From: Comamonadaceae bacterium
GTDB taxonomy: Bacteria > Pseudomonadota > Gammaproteobacteria > Burkholderiales > Burkholderiaceae_C
DNA length: 43,083 nucleotides
Assembly: GCA_013297985.1 (NCBI GenBank)
Contig: JAAFIY010000020.1
Location: 1 to 43,083 of the forward strand
Direction of reading: 5' to 3'
Below are positions 19,426 to 25,879 of the stretch, piece after piece; positions within the stretch are counted from its first letter, which is position 1, and every line of letters begins with the position of its first letter. Under the pieces are notes generated by a model. The model did not search any database. It saw only the letters and a list, made by a program, of their open reading frames with translations, and was not told the origin of the DNA. Both the position numbers and the translations under genes were made by a program.

Positions 19426-19842
19426 CTAAGGCGCGGGTGTGGGGTCGGTGATAAAGCCGATCTTGCGCATGCCTGCTTGCTGGGCGGCGGCCATGGCCTG
19501 TGCCACGGCCTCATAGCGAACGGCGCGGTCGCCGCGGATGTGCAGCTCAGGCTGCGGTTGCTCAGCCGCTGCGGCGCGCAAACGCCCGGCCAAGTCTTTG
19601 GCCGGCACCGGCTGCTCGTTCCAGAAATATTGGCCCTGGGCATCCACGCTCAAACGCACGGTTTGCGGCGGCGTGGGCGGCACTTGGTTGGTGGCGCGCG
19701 GCAAATCAATCTGCACGCTGTGCTGCATCACCGGCACGGTGATGATGAAGATGATCAACAGCACCAGCATGACGTCCACCAGCGGCGTCATGTTGATTTC
19801 GTTCATCACCTCGTCGGTTTCGTCTTGGGTGCCGAAGGCCAT
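19426..19842 (-). CDS. exbD: ExbD/TolR-family biopolymer transport protein
   Basis: 138 residues. One N-terminal membrane helix (about 20-42: PLVDVMLVLLIIFIITVPVM) contains the family's conserved Asp in the NMTPLVDVMLVLLI motif, which carries the proton path of the ExbB-ExbD motor. The periplasmic domain includes LHIRGDRAVRYEAVAQAM and KIGFITDP. With ExbB and TonB it uses the proton-motive force to energise outer-membrane receptors. The gene is 14 nt after exbB. ExbD rather than TolR is chosen because tonB and a siderophore receptor are adjacent and no tol-pal genes are present. Confidence 0.93.
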   Translation of the reverse strand: MAFGTQDETDEVMNEINMTPLVDVMLVLLIIFIITVPVMQHSVQIDLPRATNQVPPTPPQTVRLSVDAQGQYFWNEQPVPAKDLAGRLRAAAAEQPQPELHIRGDRAVRYEAVAQAMAAAQQAGMRKIGFITDPTPAP

Positions 19843-19856
19843 GGGGTGCGCTCCGT

Positions 19857-20579
19857 TCAGGCCTTGGGGGTGGGGGCGGACTGCACCCGCGAACCCGTCA
19901 CAAAGTAGGCGTGCAGATCGTGCCCAAAGCGATTGAGCTGGCCCACCACGTTCTTGTTGCCCCGCACCAGGGCGTTGTAGCCCAGCACGGCGGGGATGGC
20001 CACTACCAGGCCAAAGGCGGTCATCACCAAGGCTTCGCCAATGGGGCCCGCCACCCGGTCAATGGTGGCTTGGCCCGCCGCGCCAATAGACAGCAGCGCG
20101 TGATAGATGCCCCACACCGTGCCGAACAAGCCAACAAACGGCGCCGTGGAGCCCACCGAGGCCAGCACCGCCAGCCCCGACTGCAGCCGCGCAATCGCGT
20201 CGTCAATGCTGTTGCGCAGGCAGCGGGTGAGCCAATCGGACACGTCCATGCCGTCGCGCAAAGAGCGGGCCTGCGCAGTGGCCGCCGGTTGGTTGAGGTG
20301 CGCACTGCCTTCACGGGCGGCTTGGGCCAGGGCCACAAAGGGGTTGTCTTCTGCGGCGCCCAGGCGGTGCAGGCCCTGATCCCAATCGGCGGCCTGCCAA
20401 AAGCCTTCTACCGCACGCGCCTGGGCAGCATGGCGGCGCAGGCCCAGTGCTTTCAAGATGATCACCAGCCAACTGGCCACCGACATGGCCAAGAGCAGCA
20501 GGGCCACTGCTTTGATGACGGCGTCGCCCTGGGCCCAGACCTGCATCAGGCCCATTTGCTGGTTGAGGTTGTCGTTCAT
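19857..20579 (-). CDS. exbB: ExbB/TolQ-family proton channel protein
   Basis: 240 residues with three membrane segments: LLLLAMSVASWLVIILKALGL near the N-terminus, then APFVGLFGTVWGIYHALLSIGA and EALVMTAFGLVVAIPAVLGYN. The family MotA/ExbB motif (GSTAPFVGLFGTVWGIYHAL and the Thr/Ala of GEALVMTAFGLVVAIPAV) is intact. It forms the pentameric channel of the TonB energising complex in the inner membrane. The start at 20579 lies 3 nt after the tonB stop, so tonB-exbB-exbD is a tight operon. Confidence 0.94.
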   Translation of the reverse strand: MNDNLNQQMGLMQVWAQGDAVIKAVALLLLAMSVASWLVIILKALGLRRHAAQARAVEGFWQAADWDQGLHRLGAAEDNPFVALAQAAREGSAHLNQPAATAQARSLRDGMDVSDWLTRCLRNSIDDAIARLQSGLAVLASVGSTAPFVGLFGTVWGIYHALLSIGAAGQATIDRVAGPIGEALVMTAFGLVVAIPAVLGYNALVRGNKNVVGQLNRFGHDLHAYFVTGSRVQSAPTPKA

Positions 20580-23542: not shown

Positions 23543-23554
23543 GGGCTGGGCGGC

Positions 23555-25879
23555 TTAGAACCGGCTGCTCAGGGTGAGCTGCACCAGCCGCCCCGCGCCC
23601 GGTACGTAGTGGCCGCGATACAGCGCATCGGCGTAGTACTTGTCGGTGAGGTTGCTGATGTTCAAGCGCAGGCTGGTGGCGGCGTTCACGGTGTATTCAA
23701 GCAGTGCATCGGCCGTGGCGAAACCGGGCGCTTCCCAAGCGGGCGCGGTGACGTCGGCGGGCGATTGGCGAGCGCGGAAATTGATACCGCCGCCCAGACG
23801 CCAGTGGCTGCTGAGCTGGTAGGTGCTCCACACCGTGCCGCTGTGGCGGGGGCTTAAGCCAGGGCGATCGCCCACCCGATTGCCCACGGTGGTGGCGGTG
23901 GACGCGGCGCGGTCCACCCGCGCAATGGGCATCCACACATACGACGCATACACCTCCCACAGGGGCGTGATACGCCCGGCCACGTCTAGCTCAACACCTG
24001 CGCTGTGCCGCTGGCCTGACAGCAATAGCCGGGTGGCGGCGGTGTCGGGGTCGGTATTGCGTTCATTGAGCTTGGTGGTGCGAAAGACTGCGAATCGGGT
24101 GGACACGCGCTTGTTTGCTGATTCGATGCGCCCGCCGAGTTCGATGTTGCGGCTTTGTTCGGGCGGGGTGTTGGCGCTGAGGGCGTTGTACGAATAGGTG
24201 TCGCCCGAGGTGTTGAACGAGGTGCCCCACGCGAAGTGAAGCGAATGCCGATCGGTGGGCTGCCACAGCGCGCCTAAGCGCTGGCTCCAATCTGAAATGG
24301 TCTGGCTGTAGCTGACCTGCGCAATCGGTTGCGCGGCGTTGGCCGGCAAGTTGAACTGGGTGTAGTTGCCGCGCATTTGGTCATAGCGCACGCCACCTAG
24401 GAGCTTGATGGTGGGGGTGATGTGTACCAAGTCTTGGGCATACACGCCCACGGCGGTGTTTTCAAAGCGCGACGCATCGCGCAGATTGCGCAGCCCTTCG
24501 TCGATGCTGGGGCCCACGCCGCTGTCACTGGCAGCGCCCAAGTTGGTGGGCGGTTTAACGGGCACCACGCCGCCTTGCGCAGCGGTAAACGGTGTCTGCA
24601 CGTTCTTGCGTTCACGCGCCAAGTCAATACCGGTGAGCACTTCATGTTTGAAGCCCCAGGCACTGAACTTGGCGCTGAAATCACTTTGCACTTGCGCCGT
24701 TTGCACCTGTTGAATCTTGAGGTTGGTGCCGCGCGTCAATACGGTGTTGGCCGATAGGTTGGCGATGTCCACCGCTTGAGGATTGGTGACAGCGCCGGTG
24801 GTGGGCGCAAAGCGAATGGCGCTGGCGCGCAGGTCGCGGTTGTAGTCGCCTAAGCGCACTTGGGTGACGAGTTCCACCTCGCGGCTGAAGCGGTGGGTGT
24901 GGCGCAGGCCTGCCACGCTAGCTTGGCCGTGGTTGCGGTCACTGCCCATGCCGTAGTAGCCGGTAGGCGCCAGGCCCGGAATCAGCGTGGTGCTGGCCGA
25001 GCTGTCGCTGGCGCGCGGCCGAATCCAGGGCAGGCCGTAGTTGATGCCGTTGCGGTTGTCTAGGCTGAGCAGGTCGATTTGGAATTCATTGCGCTCGCCC
25101 ACCCCGGTGCGCCAGCTGAGCGCGCCGCCGCTTTTGTCAATCGTGCTGCCAGCGCCGTTGTTGTTGGCGCGGTTGGCCATCAGGTTGATGCGCAGCGCGC
25201 TGGAGTCGCCAAGCTTCCAGTTGAAATCACCCGTTACGCGGCGGTAGGTGTGGCTGCCCAGGGTCAGGTCCACTTGGTGTTCATCGATCAGCTGCGGCGT
25301 CTTGCTGACTTGGTTGACCACACCGCCAGTAGAGCCACGGCCAAAGAGCATCGAGGCCGAGCCGCGCAGAACTTCCACCCGATCCAACCAAAAGGTGTCG
25401 CGGTCGTAAAAAGCGGGATCGCGCAGGCCGTTCAAGTAAATGTCGCCCGTGGTGGCCAGTGAATAGCCGCGCAGGCGGATGTCTTCTTCGCCGCCTTCGG
25501 CCGCCTGAAAGGTGATGCCTGCGGTGTTGCGCAGCGCGTCTTTTAGGGTGTCTAGATTGCGCTCGTCCATGAGCTTTTCAGTGACCACGGTGATGGATTG
25601 CGGCACGTCGCGCAGCGCTTGGTTGCCTTTGCCCACCGTGGTGGTGGTCGCGCGCAAGCTGTCTTTGCCCTGGGGGGTGTCTGCCGACTCGGTGACGGTG
25701 ACGGCTTTGAGGGAGCGCGTTGGCTCAGCACCTGGCACCGGGGCTGGCGACTGCGCCCAAGCCTGACAACCGGCGGCCAGAAGCAGGGCGCCCAGGGGCA
25801 GCACGGCAGGGTGGGTGTGGGCTGGGGCGTCCGCTGCGGGGCTTTCAGAGACAAGCGGGGCGCGGTAAGGAATCTGCAT
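23555..25879 (-). CDS. TonB-dependent catecholate-type siderophore receptor
   Basis: 774 residues. The signal peptide has an unusually long N-region with few positive charges, then a hydrophobic core (LPLGALLLAAGCQAWAQS, probable cut after AWA). A TonB box-like AVTVTES follows, then the plug (RDVPQSITVVTEKLMDERN, GGEEDIRLRGYS, FWLDRVEVLRGSASMLFGRG, GGVVNQVSKTP) and a 22-strand barrel ending in LVQLTLSSRF with the terminal Phe needed for barrel assembly. It is closest in look to the Fiu/FhuE-like siderophore receptor group that pairs with PiuC dioxygenases. It lacks an N-terminal signalling domain, so no FecIR-type control is expected. A Fur-box-like palindrome lies about 120 nt upstream. The ligand cannot be read from sequence. 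Confidence 0.93.
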   Translation of the reverse strand: MQIPYRAPLVSESPAADAPAHTHPAVLPLGALLLAAGCQAWAQSPAPVPGAEPTRSLKAVTVTESADTPQGKDSLRATTTTVGKGNQALRDVPQSITVVTEKLMDERNLDTLKDALRNTAGITFQAAEGGEEDIRLRGYSLATTGDIYLNGLRDPAFYDRDTFWLDRVEVLRGSASMLFGRGSTGGVVNQVSKTPQLIDEHQVDLTLGSHTYRRVTGDFNWKLGDSSALRINLMANRANNNGAGSTIDKSGGALSWRTGVGERNEFQIDLLSLDNRNGINYGLPWIRPRASDSSASTTLIPGLAPTGYYGMGSDRNHGQASVAGLRHTHRFSREVELVTQVRLGDYNRDLRASAIRFAPTTGAVTNPQAVDIANLSANTVLTRGTNLKIQQVQTAQVQSDFSAKFSAWGFKHEVLTGIDLARERKNVQTPFTAAQGGVVPVKPPTNLGAASDSGVGPSIDEGLRNLRDASRFENTAVGVYAQDLVHITPTIKLLGGVRYDQMRGNYTQFNLPANAAQPIAQVSYSQTISDWSQRLGALWQPTDRHSLHFAWGTSFNTSGDTYSYNALSANTPPEQSRNIELGGRIESANKRVSTRFAVFRTTKLNERNTDPDTAATRLLLSGQRHSAGVELDVAGRITPLWEVYASYVWMPIARVDRAASTATTVGNRVGDRPGLSPRHSGTVWSTYQLSSHWRLGGGINFRARQSPADVTAPAWEAPGFATADALLEYTVNAATSLRLNISNLTDKYYADALYRGHYVPGAGRLVQLTLSSRF

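Follow-up and report, generated by a model that had tools for sequence, protein, structure and literature searches.

What would a flavin mononucleotide (FMN)-dependent alpha-hydroxy-acid oxidase be doing in an iron-uptake locus? The question is raised by a 43,083-nucleotide (nt) stretch of DNA from a Comamonadaceae bacterium (contig JAAFIY010000020.1; the whole stretch analyzed is referred to below as the window), on the minus strand of which the gene for such an enzyme (21720..22880) accompanies those for a PiuA/Fiu-like TonB-dependent siderophore receptor (23555..25879) and a PiuC/YbiX/CciO-type Fe(II)/2-oxoglutarate dioxygenase, or PKHD hydroxylase (22865..23542). The genes run throughout on this strand in the order receptor, PiuC, oxidase, bfd, tonB, exbB and exbD; 12 nt separate the stop of the receptor from the start of PiuC, and the reading frames of PiuC and the oxidase share 16 nt. 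A preliminary description of the locus had given these open reading frames (ORFs) in the same order and with the same spacing, and they stand upon re-reading, with Pfam and NCBIfam models supporting all seven gene names at the family level. We regard the oxidase as a probable dedicated partner of PiuC, and its chemistry as a possible clue to what PiuC does.

We carried out the survey of oxidase-PiuC-receptor linkage that the preliminary description had put forward as a check, and it rules out a chance neighbor found in this strain only. Across 151 genomes of the family (oxidase matches with E up to 1e-40, n=76; PiuC matches with E up to 1e-15, n=118), 53 of the 55 close homologues of the oxidase (>280 bits) have PiuC nearby on their own strand, as do 67 of all 76 matches; these 67 fall within 5 kb of PiuC, nearly all at less than 2 kb. 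For a gene placed at random in a 4 Mb genome, the chance of lying no more than 3 kb from a PiuC gene is about 0.15%. PiuC is present in all 71 genomes with an oxidase match and in 34 of the remaining 80, being absent from the other 46 (Fisher p = 3e-17). As this value ignores shared ancestry, we place more weight on the phylogenetic tree and on the rearrangements of the locus.

The linkage extends beyond the family. Elsewhere in the order, 13 of the 17 oxidase matches are linked, across ten further GTDB families, and three of the four exceptions belong to a single genus. Overall, the pairing recurs in 14 sampled GTDB families spanning two classes, the Gamma- and Alphaproteobacteria; three alphaproteobacterial plasmids carry it as well. 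Members of other gammaproteobacterial families show the order PiuC-oxidase-receptor (G640) and an oxidase convergent with PiuC-receptor (G665). The oxidase is rare in Alphaproteobacteria (at E 1e-58, in four genomes out of 367): one of these genomes has the order receptor-PiuC-oxidase (G918), two carry the oxidase unlinked (G757 and G889) and, in the single exception with an iron link, the oxidase of G563 directly adjoins a receptor with no PiuC in the stretch (L150, 122-3578). On the plasmid of Sagittula stellata E-37 a hemP-oxidase pair faces tonB-exbD-exbB-PiuC-receptor, and plasmids of Paracoccus pantotrophus and Azospirillum brasilense also bear the set, which Roseomonas marmotae does not carry. 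The Sagittula stellata proteins are WP_005859450.1 for the oxidase, WP_005859458.1 for the dioxygenase and WP_005859460.1 for the receptor. Thus, the position of the oxidase varies (after PiuC, before PiuC or convergent) while its pairing with PiuC remains intact, and it does so with receptors at 24-63% identity. A scan of genome contigs that used the single protein as query recovered one distant match, which is unlinked.

A tree of 117 FMN_dh proteins, built by a quick method with several forks left open and hence not taken as a claim of strict monophyly, places the PiuC-linked oxidases in one branch, 80 of the 90 rows of which are linked. The other side of the tree holds the LldD-like, GOX and LOX proteins together with one spurious linked label, the sole one outside the branch, which is 5.6 kb from PiuC on the opposite strand and coincidental. 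No linkage to PiuC is seen for LldD-like paralogues encoded in the same genomes, nor for other FMN_dh paralogues. The oxidase of the window scores 208.7 against 376 and 184.9 against 550 with the L-lactate dehydrogenase models (PRK11197/LldD) and 205.5 against 645.5 with the L-lactate oxidase model TIGR02708, and together with three relatives it falls under every NCBIfam lactate dehydrogenase/oxidase cut-off of the superfamily. The tree and these cut-offs rule out an LldD paralogue drawn into the locus by regulation. On the PiuC tree, the presence of the oxidase requires 12 changes, at least seven of which are forced by well-supported branches; given this repeated gain or loss, the oxidase counts as an accessory of PiuC and not as an obligatory component.

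The match of the oxidase protein to PF01070 (FMN_dh) spans residues 19-357 with 349 bits, and the catalytic set is kept (in the numbering of spinach glycolate oxidase, GOX: Y24, Y129, T155, D157, R164, K230, H254 and R257). An AlphaFold2 model based on 39 homologues (mean pLDDT 89, pTM 0.90) aligns with Z scores of 45-47 to human hydroxyacid oxidase 1 (HAO1), 4-hydroxymandelate oxidase and glycolate oxidase. In predicted fold and in catalytic residues it resembles glycolate oxidase/HAO1, 4-hydroxymandelate oxidase and L-lactate oxidase, and compared with glycolate oxidase its loop 4 has no long insert. It differs from the known (S)-2-hydroxy-acid oxidases in its separate branch, its scores under all NCBIfam cut-offs, its tie to PiuC and the residue at the pocket position equivalent to GOX W108, which is Gln114. 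With LldD it shares PF01070, but it departs from LldD in the score given above and in that the LldD-like paralogues are not PiuC-linked. Of 63 other sequences in the comparison, 59 have Q (29) or L (30) at the W108 position; the altered pocket is, on this alignment, a trait of the subfamily and not a peculiarity of the window protein. The preliminary description was right about the catalytic residues and about Gln114 replacing the pocket Trp; to this must be added that Gln114 is common to the relatives and that two further conserved positions are changed. GOX R309, the residue in contact with the FMN phosphate, is replaced by Gln318; this position is Arg in 77 of 79 PiuC-linked oxidases, among them that of the close relative L088, and Gln occurs in the window oxidase and one other linked sequence only. 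A conserved Pro (GOX P72) is Ala78 in the window oxidase alone, which also sits on a long branch (1.02) of the FMN_dh tree. The assignment to the family, despite Gln318, rests on profile and fold; R309 alone is no criterion of the Pfam family.

The two genes with which the oxidase is associated are of a published type. The receptor scores above the cut-offs of PF00593, PF07715 and the general TonB-siderophore model TIGR01783 (234.8 versus 223.5), misses that of the Fiu catecholate-receptor equivalog NF007349 (266.2 versus 686) and finds its best solved relative in 5fok, an iron transport outer membrane receptor (1.2e-60). The dioxygenase, which sits on a long branch (0.98) of the PiuC tree, exceeds the cut-off of NF003975 (266.7 bits versus 180), carries the PKHD C-terminal domain PF18331 (58.5 bits) and has the HxD...H iron ligands H98, D100 and H158 and the 2-oxoglutarate-binding R168, all invariant across 104 homologues. 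The adjoining of a receptor and a PKHD-type dioxygenase, here across 12 nt and likewise kept in relatives, recalls CciT-CciO of Caulobacter crescentus, PiuA-PiuC of Pseudomonas aeruginosa and Fiu-YbiX of E. coli. A genetic role of PiuC/CciO/YbiX in iron uptake is established and PiuC mutations shift the sensitivity to siderophore-linked antibiotics, while the reaction has been left without description (PMC12004947, PMC12004943). Strict dependence of the receptor on the cytoplasmic dioxygenase for iron uptake has been demonstrated for Caulobacter CciT-CciO only, and three models were offered, in which the task of CciO is to make the ligand, to oxidize it or to clear away an inhibitor (PMC12004947); a second study found that cciT and cciO mutants have the same phenotypes and that CciO has no effect on cellular iron or copper content (PMC12004943). 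What sets the present locus apart from these three pairs is the constantly attached third gene, that of the FMN alpha-hydroxy-acid oxidase. A FlaGs survey of CciT/CciO neighbors named PepSY and Sel1 proteins as the only further ones (PMC12004943), and we found no described system with the receptor-PiuC-oxidase trio in the open-access literature, in agreement with the earlier remark that no described system with this set was known. With the receptor-dioxygenase pair already published, it is the conserved third enzyme that, judged from these papers, appears to be new.

We examined the predicted regulation of these genes. Known pairs of the CciT-CciO type are Fur-regulated (PMC12004947, PMC12004943), and we scored sites against a Burkholderiales-type palindrome, AAATGMKAATNATTMKCATTT; as this consensus was written after both window sites had been seen, the relatives serve as its test. 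Upstream of the receptor, beyond the coordinates covered by the preliminary description, lies the Fur-box-like palindrome AAATACGAATCACTCGCATTT (26003..26023, minus strand; 18/20), and a second one, AAATGAGATCGATTCGTATTT (21724..21744, minus strand; 17/20), precedes bfd and overlaps the final codons at the 3' end of the oxidase gene. These are exactly the two sites scoring at least 15/20 in the window, shuffled versions of which reach a maximum of 14. Among the relatives, a score of at least 15 is reached upstream of 57% of 91 receptor genes (shuffled 0.6%), and one of at least 16 upstream of all 23 bfd genes (shuffled 0.2%); no comparable scores are seen upstream of hbpS, a gene of the downstream flank. 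In some of the loci without a site the receptor is downstream of the tonB-exbBD unit. We therefore predict two Fur units, receptor-PiuC-oxidase and bfd-tonB-exbB-exbD, of which, judging from the gene neighborhoods, the constant core is receptor-PiuC-oxidase only. A single seven-gene operon is not favored, as a separate Fur box precedes bfd and some loci have the trio but no bfd. The two box matches thus lend support to the label "Fur-type" that had been given to the locus, and the oxidase, PiuC and the receptor can be retained as a set with predicted iron regulation, but bfd-tonB-exbB-exbD, preceded by its own box, drops out as a constant part of the block. We did not use the 16-nt overlap of PiuC and the oxidase as proof of translational coupling, as its ATG comes from the conserved PiuC Trp222 codon; the same overlap is seen again in 34 of the entries listed, with double counting of a few loci, and in L105 and L108, which lack the oxidase, tonB overlaps PiuC in this way.

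Taken as a whole, we read the locus as a Fur-repressed receptor-PiuC-oxidase unit for the joint cytoplasmic oxidation of an iron ligand that would weaken the chelator, a tentative reading to which we give a little less than an even chance. The receptor would carry Fe(III), complexed by a ligand that is probably of the catechol type, through the outer membrane, and cytoplasmic PiuC would oxidize either this ligand or a piece derived from it. In the same pathway, the FMN enzyme would convert an alpha-hydroxy acid to the 2-keto acid, the hydroxy acid being either a group already in the ligand or one whose hydroxyl was installed by PiuC. With the chelator thus weakened or dismantled, iron would be freed and a build-up of the ligand avoided, and the adjoining bfd-tonB-exbB-exbD unit would provide the energy for uptake and redox partners for iron storage. 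The sequences show the genes themselves, both Fur-box matches, the intact catalytic set and the constant link of this oxidase branch to PiuC in two classes with permuted gene order; repression by Fur, joint action in the cytoplasm, the substrate and the freeing of iron are inferred. That an alpha-hydroxy acid is involved, in an active site of the (S)-2-hydroxy-acid-oxidase type, is probable. PiuA/Fiu-related receptors import catecholates and plant catechols (PMC12004947, PMC9426570); the receptor of the window is nearest to these catecholate importers. The oxidation of a hydroxycarboxylate siderophore suggested in the preliminary description is therefore one candidate among several, and a substrate formed by PiuC, or a hydroxy acid that bears a catechol, is no less likely than a ligand of the citrate type. 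A more specific version, in which the two enzymes perform consecutive steps, PiuC hydroxylating the ligand beside a carboxylate and the oxidase making the keto acid in a dedicated oxidative removal of iron from its chelator, appears doubtful to us; if true, its logic would account for the role of PiuC/CciO/YbiX across Proteobacteria. A conserved partner of a known reaction type, alpha-hydroxy-acid oxidation, narrows the candidate chemistry of PiuC and offers a directly assayable enzyme. The linkage also suggests that iron uptake is the role of many database genes that carry the label lactate dehydrogenase or alpha-hydroxy-acid oxidase.

Other roles for the oxidase need to be weighed against such joint oxidation. 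It might be located there for regulation only, as an iron-sparing replacement of Fe-S lactate/glycolate dehydrogenases under Fur de-repression; the FMN cofactor of hydroxy-acid oxidases is iron-free and the oxidase unit is under predicted Fur control, yet the genome of the host encodes glcD-like genes and also an FMN L-lactate dehydrogenase that scores above its NCBIfam cut-off (L001), and the latter weakens the explanation for lactate. Moreover, a steady pairing with PiuC, convergent and swapped arrangements included, is unexpected for a metabolic stand-in, and we consider this role unlikely. That the pairing is with PiuC itself, outlasting changes of receptor and order, would fit an oxidase that feeds or protects PiuC and is not directed at the chelator. 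Such an oxidase would form 2-oxoglutarate from 2-hydroxyglutarate, which inhibits 2-oxoglutarate dioxygenases, or would make another 2-oxo acid. Hydroxy-acid oxidases yield 2-oxo acids, the class that PiuC consumes; but other 2-oxoglutarate dioxygenases manage without a dedicated partner, as do nearly half of the PiuC genes, and Q or L at the pocket position gives no demonstrated preference for a dicarboxylate, making such co-substrate service decidedly unlikely.

Alternatively, the oxidase could work as a ferric reductase, its reduced flavin passing electrons from a hydroxy acid on to either Bfd or the ferric chelate. The genes bfd and bfr adjoin the core in many loci, and three loci have a cytochrome b561 gene between PiuC and the oxidase, one of them with a PepSY_2 gene in addition; against this, bfd is missing from many linked loci and is preceded by a separate Fur box, and the usual electron acceptors of such FMN enzymes, where they lack extra domains, are O2 or quinones. 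We hold such an electron-source role to be markedly improbable. The smallest chance of all we give to biosynthesis, in which PiuC and the oxidase would build, not break, a small iron ligand imported by the receptor. Both are oxidative tailoring types, but the recurrent neighbors recognized in the mapped loci are uptake genes, neighbors beyond the searched gene set having been viewed in few loci. This role corresponds to Model 1 published for Caulobacter CciO (PMC12004947), and is one of several points that weigh against our proposal of joint ligand oxidation. Ten members of the oxidase branch are unlinked, and since 51 of 118 PiuC genes in the family have no oxidase nearby, PiuC function in general, judged from this distribution, does not need the oxidase. 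Furthermore, the substrates that we suggest for PiuC and the oxidase are conjectural, and the activity of the window oxidase, with its FMN-phosphate Arg lost (Gln318) and its long branch, is not certain.

The second predicted Fur unit comprises four genes on the minus strand. The bfd-like [2Fe-2S] ferredoxin (21379..21705) matches PF04324 above the cut-off with 32 bits and has a CxC...CxxC pattern; its Bfd domain proper starts at the Met at position 21621. It is followed by TonB (20583..21332; PF03544), an ExbB/TolQ-type proton channel (19857..20579; PF01618) and an ExbD/TolR-type protein (19426..19842; PF02472). The proton channel scores higher with the TolQ than with the ExbB equivalog model and is under the cut-off of both. 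The upstream flank, shared with several relatives, holds a bacterioferritin gene (26222..26761, minus strand; TIGR00754 above the cut-off), upstream of which, on the same strand, is a gene for a class-V aminotransferase-fold protein (26783-27976) under all NCBIfam cut-offs. Convergent with exbD in the downstream flank, shared with many relatives, is the gene for an HbpS-like heme-binding or heme-degrading family protein (18782..19318, plus strand; PF03928). Small hemP-like genes go with the locus in relatives (for instance L187, 5816-5977), in many loci between exbD and hbpS; in the window this gap is only about 100 bp and therefore has no space for such a gene.

A few relatives carry additional genes next to the oxidase. 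In L167, L171 and L185, PiuC and the oxidase lie about 900 bp apart, each gap holding one of the three cytochrome b561 genes, and in L185 the PepSY_2 gene adjoins; this insert is possibly a periplasmic ferric-reductase module. In Azospirillum brasilense, a Sel1-repeat protein is encoded between PiuC and the oxidase (L190, about 5118-5800). Finally, one of the unlinked oxidases (L061) lies between two ORFs (4776-6050 and 7500-8744) that by eye resemble TnpB transposon proteins, suggesting that it is a mobile copy.

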